A stretch of 34,908 nucleotides of DNA, taken from IMG/VR virus record IMGVR_UViG_3300028298_000213, positions 1-34,908 of that record; one strand, 5' to 3'. Positions 5,769-30,485 of this stretch are shown piece after piece (the first letter of the stretch is position 1; each line of letters starts with the position of its first letter). The notes below the pieces were generated by a model, which saw only the letters and a program-made list of their open reading frames with translations, was not told where the DNA came from and did not search any database. Position numbers and translations under genes: made by a program. This DNA comes from a virus.

Positions 5769-8243
5769 TTAAATTTGCCACATTTGTTTGCAAATAAACG
5801 ATCCGCCATCCTTACTACGTTCCCCATGAATAAGAACATTATTTTCAACAAAGGATATTTTCTTAGCTTCGTCCCATACCTCTGAAAACACCACGGCATC
5901 AATACTACCAGTTAAGTCGCTGATTTTAAGAAATGCCATCTTCCTACCTTTATTTTTACCATTTTTAACCTTAATTTCACTCATAGCATCAATCTTAGCG
6001 GCTATAATAGTAGTTTTAGGATTAGCACCTTGTATATATTGTTGACATGTACAATTAGCAGCAGAGGTATCACACGCATCAAGACTGGTGCAGGTCAAAG
6101 GTATACCTAAAAGTGATTCCTCTACAGATGCCATCCACTCTGGGGCATCTTCTAAATTATATGAGGGGTTTTTAAGGGTTTTTAATAAGCTGGTAATCAT
6201 ATCTTTGCGCTTTTCACTAGCACATGCACCAGTTTTTCCCGTACCCGAAACTGTCATAATCATTAATAAGTCTTCTAATTTAAGTATGTCATTCTTATGA
6301 ATGGTCATATAGTTAAGTATCCAATTTCTTTCTCTATCGGTCAACTTATCATATAGTTTATATTCATACATCATACGAGTACGGCTAAGTCCCATATATG
6401 ATATTGCCCCACTATTAATAAAAGCGGCTATGGCGGTAGCATTAACGTGTTGAGCAAAGTGTATTAAAAAGTCCAACCATGACCACTGTTCTGCTTTTTT
6501 ACCAAGTAATTTTTCAACCCTTGCTATTTGGGCTATAATCTTTTTCCACGCGGCATCCCCAATACCCTTCATATCAAAAAAGCCAAAGCGTATTACCTTG
6601 TCCCATAATTTAAAATGTTTCAATAGGTGGCGTAAATCCGGCCCCTCAACGCCAATACCCATTAATCGTGCATTTTGTACTAATTCGTGAATTTCCATAT
6701 AGGGCTTAGTTTTTTCTCCTGCGTAACGTAGGTATGATGTAAAAAAACCTCTGCTAAAATGAGCTTTAGCAAACGCGGATAAATACGCATTATAAGCATA
6801 ACTAACAGCGTGGGAATTAGATGTAACTATACCAGTGGAAGTCACAAACGTATGGTTAGGATCGTCCATTGTAACATCGTATACATCTTGTAATCCAACA
6901 TATTCTATACTGTTTATAGAACACTCTAACGACGGATAACCTTTTTGACCTTTATGTATACGACCAAGACAATAATGCGCCTTTTTGTGACATGATACAC
7001 AAAGGTATTCTAAATTATTAGAGCTACTATTAGTACGATTGCCATCTTTATGATGTAGCTCCATTCTACATTCCGTAGCTGGGCATCGGTTGCATACTAG
7101 TGGTAAAGTAGCTCTGATCTTCTCATACTGAGTGTACGCACCATTTGTATATCCAGGGTTATTTTGTCCAGAGGGAAACCCACAACCACTATAAGATTTT
7201 TCTCCAGAGTGTAATTCTTTTAATGTAATAGGGCTATAACCGTATTTTGTGTTATTATGTTCATATTCCCCCTTAATATAAAGAATATCACCAACCTTTA
7301 ATTTTGATAATGGTTGTTCACCATATTTACTGGGGAATTTATGGGTCATAGTAGTTTCTATAGCGGCACCATTACTTAGTGTTACTTTAAAAATAGGTTG
7401 ATTACCTGAATATTTTATATCAACAATAATATTTGGTCTTAATCTACCGTCCTCACATAATGATAGGCATTTACCATAATTACCATAAAGTTTCCATTTT
7501 TTATATAGGCTAAGATGTCCTGTTTTTTTAGCATACTCTATATTATTTCTAATATTGAACATTTCAGATATGGTAGGCTTAAATGTAAACTTACTATTAT
7601 CTCTCCAAAACTTTGTATTTCCTGAGACACACTTATTAAAACTATAGCGTTGTGACTTTTCAATCCACTCAAAGATTTGTTCGGCTTCCTCTTTAGTTAC
7701 GGTTCCCTGTTTTTCTGCGCCCTCAAGAAATGACAACTTAATCTTAGCCATTAATTCTGGCTTTTTCTTACCAATAGCCTTTCTTAATTCGTCAGCTTGT
7801 TGTAGGTTAAAACCAGCAATATCTCTTGATATTTGCATAGCCTGTTCTTGATAGATCATTTCACCATAAGTCTTTTCAAGTGCGGGTTTTAATGCAGGAT
7901 GAAAATATGTAACTTCTTCAAGTCCATTTTTTCTATCAATATAGTGCATTGTCACCGATTTCTTATCGCGGATACTTTCTAATACCCCAGGTCTGATAAT
8001 ACTGATAAGGGCGGCTAAGTGTTCTATATTTCGCGGTTTTAATTTACGCGCAAAGTTTGATTGATTTTCAAGTTGGAATATGCCTTTGGTGTTACCAGAA
8101 CCGATTAAGTCCCAGGTACGGGGACAATCCATACTTATTTCATCCATATTTGGTACGAAGATAATAGATGGTCTATCATCTTCTAATTTACCAATAACGT
8201 CAAACTCACAACCACATTGGGCAAACTTATACTTTTCAGTCAT
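5769..8243 (-). CDS. dnaE: DNA polymerase III alpha subunit, C-terminal part (fingers to OB), with HNH intein
   Basis: This is the second half of a split DnaE-type replicative polymerase. Residues 41-204 match the fingers region of DnaE: TKGIFQLEN, a RPGVLES loop, HPALKPALEKTYGEMIYQEQ and ADELRKAIGKKKPE. An intein occupies residues 205-476. The extein resumes at SHAVSYAYNAYLSAFAKAHF and continues through a helix-hairpin-helix (FDMKGIGDAAWKKI) to an OB fold near the C-terminus (KMAFLKISDLTGSIDAVVF). The palm aspartates are not here but in the gene at 9717-11588. Without the intein this half is 552 aa; the two halves total 1175 aa, about the size of a normal DnaE. It overlaps the exonuclease gene by 8 nt. 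The tau-binding tail of cellular DnaE is not evident. Confidence 0.92.
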   Translation of the reverse strand: MTEKYKFAQCGCEFDVIGKLEDDRPSIIFVPNMDEISMDCPRTWDLIGSGNTKGIFQLENQSNFARKLKPRNIEHLAALISIIRPGVLESIRDKKSVTMHYIDRKNGLEEVTYFHPALKPALEKTYGEMIYQEQAMQISRDIAGFNLQQADELRKAIGKKKPELMAKIKLSFLEGAEKQGTVTKEEAEQIFEWIEKSQRYSFNKCVSGNTKFWRDNSKFTFKPTISEMFNIRNNIEYAKKTGHLSLYKKWKLYGNYGKCLSLCEDGRLRPNIIVDIKYSGNQPIFKVTLSNGAAIETTMTHKFPSKYGEQPLSKLKVGDILYIKGEYEHNNTKYGYSPITLKELHSGEKSYSGCGFPSGQNNPGYTNGAYTQYEKIRATLPLVCNRCPATECRMELHHKDGNRTNSSSNNLEYLCVSCHKKAHYCLGRIHKGQKGYPSLECSINSIEYVGLQDVYDVTMDDPNHTFVTSTGIVTSNSHAVSYAYNAYLSAFAKAHFSRGFFTSYLRYAGEKTKPYMEIHELVQNARLMGIGVEGPDLRHLLKHFKLWDKVIRFGFFDMKGIGDAAWKKIIAQIARVEKLLGKKAEQWSWLDFLIHFAQHVNATAIAAFINSGAISYMGLSRTRMMYEYKLYDKLTDRERNWILNYMTIHKNDILKLEDLLMIMTVSGTGKTGACASEKRKDMITSLLKTLKNPSYNLEDAPEWMASVEESLLGIPLTCTSLDACDTSAANCTCQQYIQGANPKTTIIAAKIDAMSEIKVKNGKNKGRKMAFLKISDLTGSIDAVVFSEVWDEAKKISFVENNVLIHGERSKDGGSFICKQMWQI
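6816..7631 (-). other. Intein with HNH endonuclease domain in DnaE-C
   Basis: This 272-residue in-frame intein lies between RYSFNK and SHAVSYAY of the polymerase. It starts with Cys (CVSGNTKFW), has a block-B-like TMTHKF histidine motif about 95 residues in, and ends YDVTMDDPNHTFVTSTGIVT followed by Ser-Asn. The first downstream residue is Ser. The central insertion carries an HNH domain: CNRCPATECRMELHHKDGN, then NLEYLCVSCHKKAH. The penultimate residue is Ser, not the usual His. The junction lies four residues after the site of the cyanobacterial split DnaE intein, in one of the most conserved stretches of the protein. Confidence 0.92.
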
Positions 8244-8958
8244 TAGATTCCTCTGGGATTCCCACTGGTTCCGGCTTAAATGAATCTTTAAATCTTACCT
8301 TTTCGGCAGTTCTTCTAATAAGACGTTGCCACCTTATGAATATTTCGGCGCAGTTCTTAACATCATATAGCGCGTCATGCCCGCCCTCTAATGATATACC
8401 AAAAAACTCTCTTAGAACATCTAATGAATATGATGCTGGTTCCTCTAAGTTTTCAAACCATTGGAAGCAATAAAGCATTAAGTCTATTTTATCTCTGCCA
8501 AAAAATAGGTTAGTTCTTCCATCTTTGCCTATATTATCATATTGCTTACTAAGTCTATCAATAATATGACAGTCAAACCCAAGAATATTATATCCACAAA
8601 TAAGTGGTGCAGTATAAATACCTCTCTTAGTTTGGGTTGTGTGATAACGCCCAAGATATTCCACAAAATTTTGCCACACCTGTTTTTGGTTTGGGGCATT
8701 TTTCCACGACGCGACCACTAATTCGGCGGTTGAGTGTTGATTTTTGGCGTGAAAATCTATGGTGGACTTGTGATCTACAGTATAGGTTTCCCCATCTATA
8801 TCAGCGGGGCGCATCATACTATTAAACTCACTACCTGGAATTATTTTTAAAGTACGCGGATGTATCATTAATGCTGCTAATTGAGTAGGTTCCGCAACAT
8901 AAGGATTCACACCATCTGTTTCAAAATCTAAGCAACATATATAGTGAGTATTTATCAT
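8236..8958 (-). CDS. DEDDh 3'-5' exonuclease (DnaQ/epsilon-like proofreader)
   Basis: This 240-residue exonuclease of the DnaQ family would remove mismatched 3' ends. All three Exo motifs are present: LDFETDG (Asp11, Glu13), CGYNILGFDCHII (Asp129) and GGHDALYDVKNCAEI (His194, Asp199), giving a complete DEDDh active site. It sits between the two halves of the polymerase gene and overlaps the C-terminal half by 8 nt, which strongly suggests it works as the proofreading subunit of that enzyme. No clamp-binding motif was recognised. The HNH gene upstream separates it from the N-terminal half. Confidence 0.92.
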   Translation of the reverse strand: MINTHYICCLDFETDGVNPYVAEPTQLAALMIHPRTLKIIPGSEFNSMMRPADIDGETYTVDHKSTIDFHAKNQHSTAELVVASWKNAPNQKQVWQNFVEYLGRYHTTQTKRGIYTAPLICGYNILGFDCHIIDRLSKQYDNIGKDGRTNLFFGRDKIDLMLYCFQWFENLEEPASYSLDVLREFFGISLEGGHDALYDVKNCAEIFIRWQRLIRRTAEKVRFKDSFKPEPVGIPEESND

Positions 8959-8971
8959 TTAAAATTATTCC

Positions 8972-9664
8972 TTAATTATATTTAGCAACTAATTTACAAA
9001 AGTATATAAAGTCTTTTTCATCTAAGTGTTGTTTCATTATATTAATTTTTTTATGTACCCATTGTATGTTATTAATTATATATCCCTTTTTACTATCAAT
9101 ACGATCTAATGAGGCTGTTTGTAAAGTATACTTTTTACGGGTTGGGGCGAAATGAATAGGAATACCTGTTAAAGCACACCTTCTATTTTGTTTAAGATAT
9201 AGACACCACATTTGTTTTGGTGTAATAGACCATTCTAAATCTCTCTCTTTTGCCCCATATTTTAAACTAGATATAGTGGTAGATGTTATTTCTTCATATC
9301 CGGCCCATAAGCCGTGTTCTTTACCCCTTTTTCTACTTTGACACCCACATGTGGTAGTATTACCAGAAATTAAAGAATTACTAAGAACCTTTATCTCTTT
9401 ACCACATTGACATCTACATAGAAACATAGCATGTTTATTCTTATCGTTTCCTATGTATTTATATGGTGTCAACATTCCAAATGTACGATTTAGATACTTT
9501 GTTTGGGTATTATGTCGTAAACCAAATTTTTCTAATCTTTTACTAATAGCCGCTTCTGAACAGTTATTGTCTTTAGCTATATCTTTCAAATATCTACTTT
9601 TAACAACATATTCTTCCACTAAATATTCTTTTGTTACACTGTGTAATCTTTGACCTCTTGGCAT
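8972..9664 (-). CDS. HNH homing-type endonuclease with HTH and zinc-finger modules
   Basis: The protein has three modules in 230 residues. Residues 12-55 (EYLVEEYVV, then LKDIAKDNNCSEAAISKRLE) form a helix-turn-helix. Residues 60-113 (FGMLTPYKY, CRCQCGKEI, LISGNTTTCGC) form a Cys-rich DNA-binding module also found in two other endonucleases of the window. Residues 165-215 hold the HNH core: CALTGIPI, then QTASLDRIDSKKGYIINNIQ. It is a close relative of the protein at 14628-15413, but there the first two modules are in the opposite order. It begins after an AGGAGG Shine-Dalgarno, has the GGTGTATAAT promoter and splits the polymerase locus. Free-standing homing activity is inferred from the family. 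Confidence 0.88.
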   Translation of the reverse strand: MPRGQRLHSVTKEYLVEEYVVKSRYLKDIAKDNNCSEAAISKRLEKFGLRHNTQTKYLNRTFGMLTPYKYIGNDKNKHAMFLCRCQCGKEIKVLSNSLISGNTTTCGCQSRKRGKEHGLWAGYEEITSTTISSLKYGAKERDLEWSITPKQMWCLYLKQNRRCALTGIPIHFAPTRKKYTLQTASLDRIDSKKGYIINNIQWVHKKINIMKQHLDEKDFIYFCKLVAKYN

Positions 9665-9700
9665 GATAACCTCCTATAAATGATGAAATCTGATATATAG

Positions 9701-9715
9701 ATTATACACCAAAAG
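9701..9715 (-). promoter_or_regulatory. Phage-type promoter motif before HNH gene
   Basis: The minus strand reads CTTTTGGTGTATAAT, with TATAAT at 9706-9701. The same 15 bases occur at 24475-24489 and, with one change, at 15455-15469, each time before an HNH endonuclease gene. The stop codon of the upstream polymerase half lies 1 nt before the motif. No -35 hexamer is recognisable. Confidence 0.65.
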
Positions 9716-9716
9716 A

Positions 9717-11588
9717 CTACTCAGAAATGTCTCCATTTCGTAAAATATCTGCAATTCCGGCAATTTTATCTAAAAGAGAAAGTCCTAAAATATCATATTT
9801 AATCATACCAATTTCTTCAACGTCGTTCATCTCTAATCCAGCAACCATACTCTTTGTTTTACTATCATAGACCATAGGACAAGAATCACTCAATGGTTCA
9901 CTAGATATAAGTATGCCAGAAGCGTGTTTAGATTGGTGCGCCTTTGTCCCCTCTAACCTTATAGCCTGTTCAAAATATTTGGCAAGGGGACCGACCAAGT
10001 TTCCATCTTCATCCAGGGAACACCACTCTTTTAATAACCCTTTATCATCATTCTCAAGTGTCCAACGTATAATCGAAGATTCACCTTCTTCTTCCTTCAT
10101 TATTTGAAGTTCATCAGCAATCTTAGCTTCTTCTGGAAAGTGCTTAGTGATTAGGTTCATTTCAGTTGGTGATACAACACTATGGGCACGCAGAACATCT
10201 TTTAATGCCCCACGACCTTTCATAGTCTGTATGGTTATCATTTGGGCTACTTTATCTTCCCCATATTTATTCTTAATATACTGAATAACTTTATCTCTTT
10301 TGCTCGCCGGTACATCAACGTCAATATCTGGCATAGATACACGTTCAGTGGTGTTACGCCCAGCGTTGTAGAAGCGCGAAAACAATAAATCATATTTAAG
10401 AGGGTCAATAGATGTAATCCCAATTAAATAACTCACCAAACAGCCCGCAGCACTTCCACGACCAGGACCGGGAAGCCACCCTTGACTGTTGACGAAGTTT
10501 AAAATGTCTTGGACGATCAAAAAGTAGCTTGATAATCCGGCACCTTGTAATACTCCTAATTCTTCATGTAGTCTTTTACTATATTCAGTTAGTTTATCAC
10601 CAGTGATCTTATTTAGGATTTTCTTATCCCAACCTTGTTTACACAGGGCGAGCAAATAATCCTCTGCACTTTCACCATTGGGAGTTTCAAATGGGGGTAG
10701 TTTAGGTGGTCCAAGTATGTTTTTATATTCAGAACATTTACCAGCGACCTCAAGAGTGTTTTCAAGTTCTTCCTCAGTGTTACCAAACGCAATCATCTGA
10801 TCGTAAGAATGTATATAATATTCTTTACATAAGAAGAAACCACTTAGTCCAAATGATGGGTCTGTACATTGGTAGATACTTTTATTTAAATTCGTAGCAA
10901 GAGCAACCTGATGATCTAGGTGTTGGTCTGGATATGCGTAGTGACTATCCCCAACCCCTATTATTTTTGTATTAGTATCTTTAGCTATTTTTCTAATAAT
11001 ATCCACCAATGGTTTAGACTTATAATCAATTAATTGAGCCTCAAGATAAAAGTCATCTTTAAGAATTTCTTTTAGTTCGCCCACCAATTTTGTTGCTAAT
11101 GGTATACCACTTTCATCAATATTGCCGTCTTTATCTAAGATATAGTTGGCGATGGTAGAACCCCAATGTCCCCCAAAACATATTAAATTTCCTCTGCTCA
11201 AATATGGCTTTAATTGTTCTATAGATAGACGGGGCTTATAATAAAAGTGTTTAGGCTCATTACTTTCTGATGTTAATTGAACTAAATCTTTCCACCCGGC
11301 ATCTCCCTTAGAAAGTACCAATATATGTGTTAGTTTTCTATTATTGTCGTTTTGTACACTAGCATCAAACTCACTAATATATAGCTCACAACCTATGATT
11401 AATTTATGCTCAGTCTTCTTACATTGTTTAAGCATTTGAATACTAGATGATAAATTACCATGTTCGGTAATGCCAATTCCTGGTAATCCTAAATCAGTAA
11501 GACGATTAGTTATCTGCTCAGGTTTTGAGATTCCATCGAGCATACTATACATAGTATGGTTATGAAGAGGATAGTATATTTTATTCAT
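9717..11588 (-). CDS. dnaE: DNA polymerase III alpha subunit, N-terminal part (PHP and palm)
   Basis: This is the first half of the split DnaE-type polymerase (623 aa). Residues 1-265 form the PHP domain, with metal-ligand motifs LHNHTMYSMLDG (His9, His11), TEHG (residues 41-44), CELY and GDSHYAYPDQHLDH. The polymerase palm follows: GPGRGSAAGCLVSYLIGIT (374-392), the catalytic PDIDVD (Asp421, Asp423) and the third aspartate in IKYDILGL (Asp599). The protein stops 24 residues after that, where a normal DnaE enters the fingers. The fingers and the rest are in the gene at 5769-8243. No split-intein half is visible at this end, so the two chains probably assemble non-covalently. It starts 2 nt after the upstream endonuclease stop. 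Confidence 0.92.
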   Translation of the reverse strand: MNKIYYPLHNHTMYSMLDGISKPEQITNRLTDLGLPGIGITEHGNLSSSIQMLKQCKKTEHKLIIGCELYISEFDASVQNDNNRKLTHILVLSKGDAGWKDLVQLTSESNEPKHFYYKPRLSIEQLKPYLSRGNLICFGGHWGSTIANYILDKDGNIDESGIPLATKLVGELKEILKDDFYLEAQLIDYKSKPLVDIIRKIAKDTNTKIIGVGDSHYAYPDQHLDHQVALATNLNKSIYQCTDPSFGLSGFFLCKEYYIHSYDQMIAFGNTEEELENTLEVAGKCSEYKNILGPPKLPPFETPNGESAEDYLLALCKQGWDKKILNKITGDKLTEYSKRLHEELGVLQGAGLSSYFLIVQDILNFVNSQGWLPGPGRGSAAGCLVSYLIGITSIDPLKYDLLFSRFYNAGRNTTERVSMPDIDVDVPASKRDKVIQYIKNKYGEDKVAQMITIQTMKGRGALKDVLRAHSVVSPTEMNLITKHFPEEAKIADELQIMKEEEGESSIIRWTLENDDKGLLKEWCSLDEDGNLVGPLAKYFEQAIRLEGTKAHQSKHASGILISSEPLSDSCPMVYDSKTKSMVAGLEMNDVEEIGMIKYDILGLSLLDKIAGIADILRNGDISE

Positions 11589-26232: not shown

Positions 26233-26261
26233 ATTATAGCACGAAAAGTGGGTTTTGTCAA
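26233..26261 (-). promoter_or_regulatory. Consensus host sigma-70 promoter
   Basis: TTGACA (26261-26256), 17 nt and TATAAT (26238-26233) on the minus strand form a perfect sigma-70 promoter in the gap between the ribonucleotide reductase stop and the HNH start codon (45 nt downstream). It begins TTGACAAAACCC, shared with the promoter at 19656. It probably opens the long replication unit. Confidence 0.88.
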
Positions 26262-26267
26262 GCCAAA

Positions 26268-29200
26268 TTATGAACATTTAGAATAAGAGCATTTTGAACA
26301 ACTCCAACACCCCTCTTTACGAATTAATTGAGCCTGACATTCTGGACAAAATTCACCATCTATAATAGCACCATCCTTAATGTATTTTTTGAGTATGCGA
26401 GCAATAGCCTTAGCAAAACTGTGTGTTGCGGCACAATTACCACCTACCCGTTCTAACTGTGTAACTATTAAATTAATATCTGTCTTTGCTCTTAGCAATG
26501 TTGAAACTAATCTAGTAATAGCTTCCTCTGTATCTGTAGAAAAACTAGTAATTGGGCTTAGTTCGGTATCATCTTCTTCAAATATGGCCTTATAAAATCC
26601 TTTTTTCTTTCTTACAATAATACCACGTTTGACATTATTACCAATATTTCCATTTTTACCAGCAAATACCTCATATGGACCGTCTAATATGCCAATACAT
26701 ACAAAATAACCTGTGCCTCCAACAGAAGTATGATAAACATCACAGGGTAACTCTTTTGGTCTTTTGGGGATAGAATTATCTAAAATAACCCCAGAACGAC
26801 AACCTTTTCTATATATGGTAACGCCCTTACAACCATGTTTCCATGCTTCTTCATATATATTAGCAACTGTTTCAACCTTAGTATTTTCCGGTAGATTTAT
26901 TGTGCTAGAAATAGAATGGTCTATATGTTTTTGAATAGTCCCTTGTAGTTCAATACGCGACAAATAGTTTAAATCTTCGGCACAACAACCATACCAAGGA
27001 CTTTCTTCTATATCTGTTTTCTTAGTAATCTCTTTCCATAACGTAAATTTTGGATGGTCGAACTCAAATTCCATCCAATTATCCCCATTTGCATCGGTAA
27101 AGTCACACCTAAAATTTTCATCTGTTAAATTACCCTTTTTACGTCTTTTCATACTTAGATATAGTAAGGGTTCTCCACCAGAGGTAGTTTGTGTTTCTAC
27201 ACTAATTGTACCCGCTGGGGATAGTGTCATACAAGCTATATTGCGGCGACCATATTGTTTAATATTATTATATAGGTCGGCACCACTTATTTCTTTACCG
27301 TCTATCTCAATTGTTTCGTCTTTAATTCTATTTAAAAATGGATTATCTTTTTCTAATTCGTATGACCATATTGGGAAAGTACCAATTTCTTTAGCCATAT
27401 TCATAGATGACTCATAACAACCAAATTTAAGCGTTTTAAATATACGATCTGTTATGCCCAGAGATTTTTTACTACCATATTTAATATTTAAAGCAGCAAA
27501 TGTATCAGCTAATGCTGTTGTTCCGGTTCCAGTTCTTCTTCCATTAGCACACATTGAACGAATACGTTCCCACATATTTAATTCTCGTTCTTTATATGTT
27601 AATGGTTCAGGGTCATCTTTAATTTTTGTAATAATCCTGTCTATACATTCTAATTCTAAATCAATAATATCATCCATTAATCTTTGAGCTATTTGAGCAG
27701 TAGAATAAAATAGATCATAGTCAAAATATGCCTTGGATGTAAATGGATTAACCACAAATGAGAAAAGGTTTAACAACAATAGGCGACAACTATCTAAAGC
27801 TGGTAGGGGTAACTCTCCACAGTTTGATACATTACAACCTTCTGTCCAATAAGTATGGGATAAGTTATCTACTGTAATATCAAATGTTTCTTCAGTACTT
27901 ATTTTTGTTATTTCTATTATATTGTGGGTAAGTTTCTTATCTTTTCTTTTTTTATTATTATATGACTCTATTATTTTTTGTAATTTTTTATTTTTATATT
28001 GCTGTATAAAACCAATATTATTAGCAAAAATATCTATATCTATTGATATATTAAGATCATAACTTTGTTTACATGTATATATTCCATTTATAAATTCCAC
28101 ATCTTTTTCTAGGTTTGTTGTATAATATGATTTAATACCAATACTAGACAACATAAGCTGAATATCTTCAATAATTTGTTTTGACGCACTTTTTAATGTT
28201 ACTCTTTTATCACAGATTGAACCATTGGCACTATACAACCCTCTTAAAAAACTACATTTAGTATTATAATCAGACTCAATATATCTTTGTGGTATTTTTC
28301 TTAAATATGTATATGGAATTTCCTTATATGAAATAGTGGTATTAATTTCATAACTTATACCATTGGAACATAAACTTGGTCGATGTTTAGTTATTAGATG
28401 TTTAATCTCGCTAGAAAAATAGTCTTGATCGTTTTCACCAATTATCAAGTAAACAAGATTATTAGATGCTTTATGATACGAACCATCACCAAGTACTAAC
28501 CCGTCCATAATAGCTTGACAGTCAAAAACAATATTTGTTTGTCTATTACCTCTTATAATATCTATTCCAGTAGCATCTTTTACAAATATTTTTTTATTAT
28601 TACATAAAACCTGATGTTCTTGTGTACCAAAAAATCTACCTGCTGTGGTTTCATACTTATATACATCTTTTATACCGCTAGAATACTTATTTATAATGTT
28701 TGTCCAGCCATCTTTACTCCAAATATTATCTCCAATTTTAATATCATTAATGGTTCTTATACCATTAGGGGTTAATACTTTACCCCAGCCAGGTTGACAA
28801 GGATTAACACACACTGTATTAAAACCAAGTTTAGCATAACAGTCTGAGATACTTTCACGAATAATAGTGTCCCAAAATAAAACTCCGGGTTCGGCTGATT
28901 CCCACGCTGTTTTTACAATGGTGTCCCATAGTTTTTTAGCCTTAATGGTTTGTTTTATAGTTGGATTTAAACTATCTATAGGCCACTGTTGTTCATATTC
29001 ACCATCTTTTAGGGCACTTACTATAAACTTATCATATATAGCTAGAGATATATTTGCCCCGGTAATTTCTTCTATATTTCTTTTAGACTGCACAAATTCT
29101 GATGCGTTTGGGTGCTTATCGTGCATCATAAGCATTAAAGCACCGCGCCTACCGTCTTGACCAACCTCTCTAATAGAATGAGAAAATCTCTTAGCAAAAG

Positions 29201-29681
29201 AGATGGGGCCGGTACTAGTTCTGGATGAATTTTTAGTTGGGGTTTTATTTGGTCTTAGAAAGGATAAATGAGTGCCACATCCACCTCTGCGCTTACTAAT
29301 TTGAACTAATTGTTCATCTGACCAACATATACCACCATAACTATCAGCAGGTGGGTCTATAACATAACAGTTTGATAAGGTTACATATTGTTTATTATTG
29401 CCTAGTCCATATAGTATTCCACCTTGGGGAACAATATATTTGAAGCGATCTAAGTAACTAAAAATTTCTTCTTTAGATAGAGGCTTTTTAAACTTTTTAC
29501 TTTCTATTCTAGCAAATTCTCCAGCTAGTCTCCAGTGCATTTCTTCTGGTGTTTTTTCAAGTAGGTTTCCATCATTATCTCTTAACGCGTATTTGTCCAC
29601 AAATACTTTTGCCGCTAAATTATCATTATTAAAATATTCTAATGATGCTTTATAGGCTTCATCATATGGTACAATATTCAT
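26268..29681 (-). CDS. nrdJ: Class II (B12-dependent) ribonucleotide reductase NrdJ with intein
   Basis: This enzyme reduces ribonucleotides to deoxyribonucleotides using adenosylcobalamin, so it needs no oxygen and no second subunit. Signatures are LSNCYVIDPP (first redox Cys, residue 105), RRGGCGTHLS, GRRGALMLMM and, after the intein, CGELPLPALDSCRL. There Cys621 is the thiyl-radical position and Cys632 the second redox partner. The C-terminus ends with CPECQAQL and CWSCSKCSYSKC, the zinc-ribbon tail of class II enzymes. An intein at residues 295-620 interrupts Asn-Pro/Cys-Gly-Glu; without it the protein is 811 aa, a normal NrdJ length. The gene lies downstream of a small ORF and a leader RNA with a terminator. 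Confidence 0.93.
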   Translation of the reverse strand: MNIVPYDEAYKASLEYFNNDNLAAKVFVDKYALRDNDGNLLEKTPEEMHWRLAGEFARIESKKFKKPLSKEEIFSYLDRFKYIVPQGGILYGLGNNKQYVTLSNCYVIDPPADSYGGICWSDEQLVQISKRRGGCGTHLSFLRPNKTPTKNSSRTSTGPISFAKRFSHSIREVGQDGRRGALMLMMHDKHPNASEFVQSKRNIEEITGANISLAIYDKFIVSALKDGEYEQQWPIDSLNPTIKQTIKAKKLWDTIVKTAWESAEPGVLFWDTIIRESISDCYAKLGFNTVCVNPCQPGWGKVLTPNGIRTINDIKIGDNIWSKDGWTNIINKYSSGIKDVYKYETTAGRFFGTQEHQVLCNNKKIFVKDATGIDIIRGNRQTNIVFDCQAIMDGLVLGDGSYHKASNNLVYLIIGENDQDYFSSEIKHLITKHRPSLCSNGISYEINTTISYKEIPYTYLRKIPQRYIESDYNTKCSFLRGLYSANGSICDKRVTLKSASKQIIEDIQLMLSSIGIKSYYTTNLEKDVEFINGIYTCKQSYDLNISIDIDIFANNIGFIQQYKNKKLQKIIESYNNKKRKDKKLTHNIIEITKISTEETFDITVDNLSHTYWTEGCNVSNCGELPLPALDSCRLLLLNLFSFVVNPFTSKAYFDYDLFYSTAQIAQRLMDDIIDLELECIDRIITKIKDDPEPLTYKERELNMWERIRSMCANGRRTGTGTTALADTFAALNIKYGSKKSLGITDRIFKTLKFGCYESSMNMAKEIGTFPIWSYELEKDNPFLNRIKDETIEIDGKEISGADLYNNIKQYGRRNIACMTLSPAGTISVETQTTSGGEPLLYLSMKRRKKGNLTDENFRCDFTDANGDNWMEFEFDHPKFTLWKEITKKTDIEESPWYGCCAEDLNYLSRIELQGTIQKHIDHSISSTINLPENTKVETVANIYEEAWKHGCKGVTIYRKGCRSGVILDNSIPKRPKELPCDVYHTSVGGTGYFVCIGILDGPYEVFAGKNGNIGNNVKRGIIVRKKKGFYKAIFEEDDTELSPITSFSTDTEEAITRLVSTLLRAKTDINLIVTQLERVGGNCAATHSFAKAIARILKKYIKDGAIIDGEFCPECQAQLIRKEGCWSCSKCSYSKCS
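27822..28799 (-). other. LAGLIDADG intein in NrdJ
   Basis: This 326-residue intein begins CQPGWGKVLTPNGIRTI (Cys1) and has a block-B motif GTQEHQVL about 57 residues in. A homing domain has two LAGLIDADG-like helices, IMDGLVLGDGSYH (391-403 of the gene product) and FLRGLYSANGSI (478-489). It ends FDITVDNLSHTYWTEGCNV followed by Ser-Asn and the extein Cys621. As in the DnaE intein, the penultimate residue is Ser instead of His. The insertion lies directly before the catalytic radical cysteine, so the enzyme is inactive until splicing occurs. Confidence 0.93.
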
Positions 29682-29733: not shown

Positions 29734-29973
29734 CTAGACTTTTACAGGCTCATCTTTATATATTGATTTTAAGATAGACTGAGCTTCGTCTGCGTCTGGT
29801 AGGTTGGAAATCTTTTTCTTCTTTTTGCTGTTTGTATTGCCAACAGTCTTAGCATAAAACTCCCAAATTTTGTATGCTGAATCACTAGCATAGCTCTTGC
29901 GCTTACCAGTGTCTTGTCCTAAAGAGTCTCTTACAGCCACAACAATCTCAAATGTGAATTTTTCTTCGTCCAT
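29734..29973 (-). CDS. Small hypothetical protein upstream of nrdJ
   Basis: A 79-residue product with start MDEEKFTFEIVVAVRDSLGQ, a middle region KSYASDSAYKIWEFYAKTVG and a Lys cluster near residue 53. It is the first ORF after the leader-RNA terminator, 38 nt from its hairpin, with an AAGGA Shine-Dalgarno. Transcription of this gene and nrdJ would depend on passing the terminator. No family was recognised; a role linked to nucleotide supply is possible from position only. Confidence 0.6.
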   Translation of the reverse strand: MDEEKFTFEIVVAVRDSLGQDTGKRKSYASDSAYKIWEFYAKTVGNTNSKKKKKISNLPDADEAQSILKSIYKDEPVKV

Positions 29974-30010
29974 TACTAATTTTCCTTAGTTAGTTTAAAA
30001 TGATGAGAAA

Positions 30011-30040
30011 ACCCGCCCATAAGACCTCTTATAGACGGGT
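30011..30040 (-). terminator. Terminator hairpin (possible attenuator) upstream of nrdJ operon
   Basis: The RNA on the minus strand forms ACCCGUCUAUAAGA paired with UCUUAUGGGCGGGU (13-14 pairs including G-U pairs, tight GG loop), followed by UUUUCUC. The loop-proximal AAGAGGUC is complementary over 8 nt to GACCUCUU further upstream, which could open it. Confidence 0.75.
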
Positions 30041-30158
30041 TGTAGTTTTTAAAGGTGACACGTTGATTTTTGTTTTAGGGAATCAATTATATGAGTAATG
30101 TGTCACCTTAACAATGGACCTAAAGAGGTCACAGTTCTTTATGTTTTACTCGTTCCCT
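30011..30158 (-). ncRNA. Structured leader RNA of the nrdJ operon (or small RNA)
   Basis: The 245-bp gap between 29974 and 30218 has no ORF but contains a promoter and three hairpins on the minus strand. Hairpin 1 (30130-30117) pairs GACCU with AGGUC. Hairpin 2 pairs AAGGTGACAC with GTGTCACCTT (10 bp; 30109-30100 with 30061-30052) and holds an inner 6-bp stem TTGATT/AATCAA with a 13-nt one-sided internal loop. Hairpin 3 is the terminator. The left arm of hairpin 1 plus three loop bases, GACCUCUU, is complementary to the terminator AAGAGGUC. This layout suits an attenuation-type regulator of nrdJ, or a discrete RNA of about 145 nt. No B12-box was seen. Confidence 0.6.
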
Positions 30159-30178
30159 ATTATATTAATACACCGTTT
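30159..30178 (-). promoter_or_regulatory. Promoter for the leader RNA and nrdJ operon
   Basis: The minus strand reads AAACGGTGTATTAATATAAT. It combines the phage-type element AAACGGTGTAT with a TATAAT (30164-30159). No TTGACA is present at -35. It lies just downstream of the end of the secreted-peptide gene and upstream of all three hairpins. Confidence 0.6.
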
Positions 30179-30218
30179 GGTAGTATAATAAAAATGCCCA
30201 TATGAAAAATTTTCAAAA

Positions 30219-30485
30219 TTATTGGGGCAACTTTATCTCTAAATAATACTCTTTTTTCTTAGTTTTAAGACCGGGAAATGGTACATTTGGAGGATATTCT
30301 GGAACATAATCCCCACGCATCCACGGCATATGATCGGGCATTAAAATTATAGGGGTGGATGTTGCAGACTCAATTACATTATAAAATTTCATCTCTGATT
30401 TGGGCTTTTCCACCTTTGGTTTTTCAACATGAAGTGGACGATCATAACTAATACTACATAATAATAGTAATGCTATAAGTTTCAT
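30219..30485 (-). CDS. Small protein with N-terminal signal/anchor segment
   Basis: The 88-residue product starts MKLIALLLLCSISYDRP, a short hydrophobic signal or anchor. The residue before Cys is Leu, so a lipoprotein lipobox is not convincing. The mature part is Pro-rich (KPKVEKPKSEMKFY, MPWMRGDYVPEYPPNVPFPG). It overlaps the dCMP deaminase gene by ATGA and is the last gene of that unit. It might be exported or attach to the inner membrane, but no function can be assigned. Confidence 0.6.
   Translation of the reverse strand: MKLIALLLLCSISYDRPLHVEKPKVEKPKSEMKFYNVIESATSTPIILMPDHMPWMRGDYVPEYPPNVPFPGLKTKKKEYYLEIKLPQ

Follow-up and report, generated by a model that had tools for sequence, protein, structure and literature searches.

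What does a phage keep in the 245 nucleotides that separate its dCMP-deaminase operon from the gene of a B12-dependent ribonucleotide reductase? We analyzed this gap in an IMG/VR virus record that covers 34.9 kb of an uncultured phage and in its full length is called the window here. As far as can be told, the genes of the window lie on the minus strand. Their order, read downstream, is ClpP-like head protease, p326, p278, p216, p112, dCMP deaminase, p88, the gap, p79 and NrdJ. Farther downstream of NrdJ the window encodes HNH endonucleases, a DnaB-like helicase, a DnaE that is split and carries an intein, SSB and a small sigma factor. As had been described, the gap spans exactly 30218-29974, with p88 ending at 30219, p79 starting at 29973 and nrdJ following. 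No tRNA or tmRNA was detected in the window. In Bacteroides phage DAC23 a large insert occupies about the same place of NrdJ as the LAGLIDADG intein of the window. DnaE (5769-11588) is divided into two ORFs, separated by an HNH-like ORF and one more ORF, and its C-terminal part bears an intein-like insert.

The reading that we prefer, to which we assign a probability of about 40%, is that the gap is a discrete noncoding RNA unit, composed of a promoter, a pseudoknotted RNA and a leaky terminator with read-through to p79-nrdJ.

We folded the gap and compared it with shuffled sequences. Both hairpins and the terminator listed in the original prediction are present, and so is the central stem AAGGUGACAC/GUGUCACCUU with its inner stem UUGAUU/AAUCAA and a 13-nt one-sided loop. 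The suggested pairing of CCCUA with UAGGG grows to 7 bp (UAGGGAA/UUCCCUA). The folding energy of the entire gap was low (z = -3.1), and the terminator accounts for most of this value. When the terminator was removed, the nested fold was not significant (z = -1.45; 15 of 200 shuffles folded as well). Two helices of at least 8 bp were observed, compared with 1.0 expected, and 27% of shuffles equalled this count.

By our estimate, the nested fold is not the best arrangement of these strands. We observed that GAGUAA/UUACUC, a pairing that the original prediction had missed, and UAGGGAA/UUCCCUA interlock with the central stem. Two interlocked helices with a short loop 2 correspond to an H-type pseudoknot (30159-30052), as judged from sequence and an energy estimate. 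The interrupted stem 1 has 13 bp and stem 2 has 10 bp, which gives 23 bp in the predicted pseudoknot stems. The 13-nt loop had been proposed as a ligand pocket; its UUACUC pairs upstream with GAGUAA (30151-30146) instead. The stacking score of the pseudoknot, -39.2, was reached by none of 1000 shuffles and, under relaxed rules, by none of 5000, and it was the top score of 2780 window tiles from both strands. It was not reached by any of 3608 composition-matched tiles of related loci, the best of which came close (-38.96). For the segment 30165-30043 we estimated -26.3 kcal/mol with the pseudoknot and -20.5 kcal/mol when only nested pairs were allowed. With a standard pseudoknot penalty included, the estimated advantage of the pseudoknot over the nested stem proposed before is 4-6 kcal/mol. 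The test was designed only once the helices had been seen. Because of this post hoc framing, and because a natural control came so close, we regard the evidence for the predicted pseudoknot as good but not conclusive. An HDV-like ribozyme, considered with its generally known fold, was rejected, as on reading the sequence no hairpin fits between the 5' strand of stem 2 and the 3' strand of stem 1.

Table 1. Positions of the gap features, related promoter motifs and neighboring genes in the window.
Feature	Position	Strand	Remarks
Promoter motif AACGGTGTATTAAT	30164..30177	(-)	GGTGTATAAT extended -10 class, one T inserted
GGTGTATAAT copies	34010-34001, 25605-25596, 24484-24475, 9710-9701; 15464-15455	(-)	15464-15455 with one mismatch
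Stem 1 outer 5' strand UAGGGAA	30153..30159	(-)	7 bp with 30082-30076
Stem 1 inner 5' strand GAGUAA	30146..30151	(-)	6 bp with 30098-30093
Hairpin H1, GACCU-CUUU-AGGUC	30117..30130	(-)	In pseudoknot loop 1; -4.4 kcal/mol alone
Stem 2 5' strand AAGGUGACAC	30100..30109	(-)	10 bp with 30061-30052
Stem 1 inner 3' strand UUACUC	30093..30098	(-)	1 nt past stem 2 5' strand
Stem 1 outer 3' strand UUCCCUA	30076..30082	(-)	Pairs with 30159-30153
A-rich loop 3 AAACAAAAAUCAAC	30062..30075	(-)	14 nt; putative role from H-type geometry
Stem 2 3' strand GUGUCACCUU	30052..30061	(-)	Pairs with 30109-30100
Intrinsic terminator	30010..30041	(-)	14-bp stem, AGGU loop, -20.6 kcal/mol
p79	29734..29973	(-)	79-aa orphan ORF; Shine-Dalgarno AAGGA
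NrdJ	26268..29681	(-)	Class II ribonucleotide reductase with LAGLIDADG intein; TIGR02504 and Pfam matches

A promoter had also been proposed in the gap. In a generic sigma-70 scan the gap stayed at chance level (7 sites vs 6.3 expected; its best site ranked 59 in the window), but a phage-specific motif, AACGGTGTATTAAT, is present. Three exact copies of AACGGTGTAT were found in the window (25608, 30177 and 34013), while 0.07 were expected. They lie on the gene-sense strand only, at or after the end of a gene and just ahead of the next one. Similarly, GGTGTATAAT has four exact copies in the window (0.18 expected), all in the sense orientation and just ahead of genes. In related phages this class of motif is found ahead of tRNA genes or at short distances before ORFs, a placement which points to a promoter; TTGACA sometimes lies 16 nt upstream of it. 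The copy in the gap reads GGTGTATTAAT, which is one base longer, with an extra T in the -10 element (TATTAAT). We infer a transcription start near 30158, where the first bases of stem 1 lie. A second TATAAT (30164-30159) would put the start within stem 1. Promoter motif, pseudoknot and terminator abut, with 4 nt from the end of the motif to stem 1 and 10 nt from stem 2 to the start of the terminator. Ahead of p129 the motif lies just 13 nt before the start codon; therefore the following gene need not be served by every copy.

Between the terminator and p79 our computation revealed no good promoter, in agreement with the original prediction. A second class of promoters, strong sigma-70 candidates on the minus strand at 26261, 19683, 16818 and 5749, has TTGACARAAYCY in common from -35 on, and the gap contains nothing comparable. 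Three of the GGTGTATAAT copies, led by CTTTTGG or TCTTTTGG, precede HNH endonuclease-like ORFs.

The terminator combines a hairpin with a U-tract, as an attenuator does, and this U-tract is short and imperfect (UUUUCU). Its U-G wobbles pair on the gene-sense strand only. In the reading of the gap as an RNA unit, an RNA started by the phage promoter at 30177-30164 would fold into the pseudoknot, and most transcripts would end at the terminator, which would yield a noncoding RNA that is stable and about 149 nt long. A minority of polymerases would pass the terminator, whose leakiness is suggested by the short U-tract, and would supply p79-nrdJ. Terminators were found directly before genes elsewhere in this phage, in SSB|sigma (5264-5229) and p326|p278. 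Those after SSB and p326 may create a gradient, with an abundant upstream and a scarcer downstream product; in the gap, it would be the RNA itself that is abundant. The gap appears to work like a terminator-limited RNA unit. The earlier proposal was supported in so far as a structured RNA, equipped with a promoter motif, precedes a terminator and p79-nrdJ. Several observations count against the RNA unit. No homologue was found that would show covariation, the -10 element carries an insertion, the second TATAAT would move the start into stem 1, the pairs of the pseudoknot are all Watson-Crick, and the loci L013 and L018, closest by helicase, have no such RNA before nrdJ.

A somewhat doubtful alternative is that the gap is a cis-acting leader of p79-nrdJ, in which the pseudoknot or H1 would sense a ligand or protein and alter read-through of the terminator, as the original prediction had outlined. 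It differs from the RNA unit mainly in function, and both could hold. The position directly upstream of p79-nrdJ, with no good promoter past the terminator, suits such a leader. In the switch of the original prediction, part of the leader would pair with the terminator. In favor of a leader, the 8-nt complement GACCUCUU/AAGAGGUC (30130-30123/30030-30023) does exist, and its upstream segment lies within the 5' arm and loop of H1, in loop 1 of the pseudoknot. Such an 8-mer between leader and terminator was found in 37 of 2000 shuffles (1.9%) and 24 of 586 window tiles (4.1%). It is therefore mildly unusual, and weakly significant; with its position left free, an 8-base complement would be expected by chance in this gap. 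The switch mechanism itself was not supported, as it loses energetically. The antiterminator fold (-43.3 kcal/mol) was 10.5 kcal/mol less stable than the terminator fold (-53.8 kcal/mol), and the duplex contributes -10.8 kcal/mol, whereas the terminator (-20.6) and H1 (-4.4) would both be given up for it. A further point against a leader is that none of the strands of the pseudoknot overlaps the terminator. The recurrence of terminators before genes looks like a habit of this phage, and no nrdJ-specific sensor is needed to explain it.

We looked for known RNA families by cmscan of all 4227 Rfam families at loose thresholds (E up to 10), and this gave chance hits only. Among the riboswitch models, cobalamin included, the one hit was to PreQ1, at chance level (12.5 bits) and outside the gap, which counts against a leader. 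A relationship to the nrdJ motif or to a B12 riboswitch, raised in the original prediction, found no meaningful match. We assumed that the library holds the nrdJ motif model, as an Rfam search was reported to find this motif in Streptomyces (PMC8388888). Like the nrdJ motif, a cis-acting element, the gap RNA precedes the gene of a class II ribonucleotide reductase, but it lacks a covariance-model match at E up to 10. It resembles terminating riboswitches, such as cobalamin, in that a structured RNA is followed by a terminator; it differs from them in having no family match and no energetically competitive antiterminator.

Other phage RNAs offer partial parallels to the gap RNA. In favor of a cis-acting leader, the leader of gene 32 in T4-type phages has a pseudoknot that serves autoregulation and precedes the start codon by about 67 nt (PMC3014915). 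Both are H-type pseudoknots in phage mRNA, tens of nucleotides upstream of a gene of DNA metabolism. In the gap, in contrast, the start codon is separated from the pseudoknot by a terminator, the gene that follows does not encode SSB, and the stems comprise 23 bp. The put RNA of HK022, which suppresses termination by direct action on RNA polymerase (PMC9378689), is by its description likewise a nascent structured phage RNA near terminators.

Homologues of the gap and of p79 were sought with blastn and tblastn, and with patterns at the peptide and DNA level. No homologue of the gap RNA was found in phages, IMG/VR or loci of GTDB genomes, collections which may omit near relatives. Three contigs bearing the same 10-bp stem proved to be unrelated. 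Among about 80 IMG/VR relatives of NrdJ, a terminator lies directly before nrdJ in L043/L047, L020 and L030, and L068 has a weaker candidate. The majority have none, which argues against a cis-acting leader. L013 and L018, the closest loci by helicase, have almost no gap before nrdJ. In the fetched loci we did not observe any look-alike of the pseudoknot and terminator composite, by a search that is a weak test, as its strict U-tract rule also missed the terminator of the window. The gap between deaminase and nrdJ in L043 (4712-4991) encodes a different, strongly structured RNA of 280 nt (z = -4.3). It was rejected as a relative, having neither pseudoknot nor sequence in common with the gap of the window. 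It contains a terminator and a GGGTTCGACTCCC that resembles a tRNA T-arm, and neither ARAGORN nor Rfam identified a tRNA or tmRNA there.

It is unlikely that the gap is an ordinary operon boundary, consisting of the terminator of the deaminase operon, a decayed promoter copy, and pairing that is coincidental or a functionless relic. The non-significant nested fold of the gap without its terminator speaks for such a boundary, as do the insertion in the promoter copy, the failure to find conservation and the recurrence of terminators before genes in this phage. On the other hand, the pseudoknot outscored every shuffle and natural tile tested, and a non-coding stretch of 170 nt ahead of the terminator stands out in a window otherwise so tightly packed with genes.

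We consider it very unlikely that the repeats of the gap are a DNA-level element, as operators or within a replication origin, and not an RNA structure. Since the pseudoknot contains Watson-Crick pairs only, functions of its repeats at the DNA level would fit equally well. An extended inverted repeat is present (18 nt, 83%), as is an imperfect direct repeat (28 nt, two copies, 71%; 24 of 300 shuffles were as good), and TTGTTA-17-TATAAT overlaps one repeat arm. Against this, copies of GGTGACAC are absent from other promoters, the skew is unchanged at the gap, and the bipartite stem 1 with its 1-nt junction suits a pseudoknot better than spaced operators.

A type III toxin-antitoxin-like unit, in which the pseudoknot RNA and terminator would be followed by a p79 bound by the RNA, is extremely improbable: the gap matches ToxIN in gene order and terminator (PMC5772629), that is, promoter, pseudoknot RNA, leaky terminator and small ORF, but it holds a single pseudoknot and no 36-nt repeat array, tandem antitoxin repeats are not significant, and p79 precedes nrdJ within a single run of genes. 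The 79-aa p79 showed no match to a toxin family of the ToxN/CptN/TenpN type in Pfam or NCBIfam and only weak ones to PADLOC models. More generally, no family or relative of p79 was found in Pfam or NCBIfam or with the search methods given above; the matches in PADLOC (E about 0.01) and PDB (E 0.022) were regarded as chance, and the predicted structure (pLDDT 49) was too poor for use. By the tests run, the gap RNA falls outside the nrdJ motif, the Rfam riboswitches and the type III toxin-antitoxin families.

Returning to the RNA unit, it is doubtful that the gap represents a new class of pseudoknotted phage small RNA, with a phage-specific promoter and a terminator through which the RNA and a B12-dependent ribonucleotide reductase would be coupled in their synthesis. 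If so, the RNA could act in trans on RNAs or proteins of the host or phage, or alternatively it could represent a new fold that serves as a domain for sensing a ligand. To our knowledge, few pseudoknotted noncoding RNAs of phages have been described. Phages commit to replication at their genes of nucleotide metabolism, and a compact RNA gene, if real, would be positioned here to set the amount of class II ribonucleotide reductase. The GGTGTATAAT motif, which occurs across several uncultured phages carrying nrdJ, may be useful for finding their transcription units.

We made one further observation upstream of p326 (33960-33930), where TTTTACTC...GAGTAAAA could form a hairpin across the ribosome-binding site. 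In the pseudoknot region, GAGTAAAA and AATAGGGA are likewise found around stem 1.
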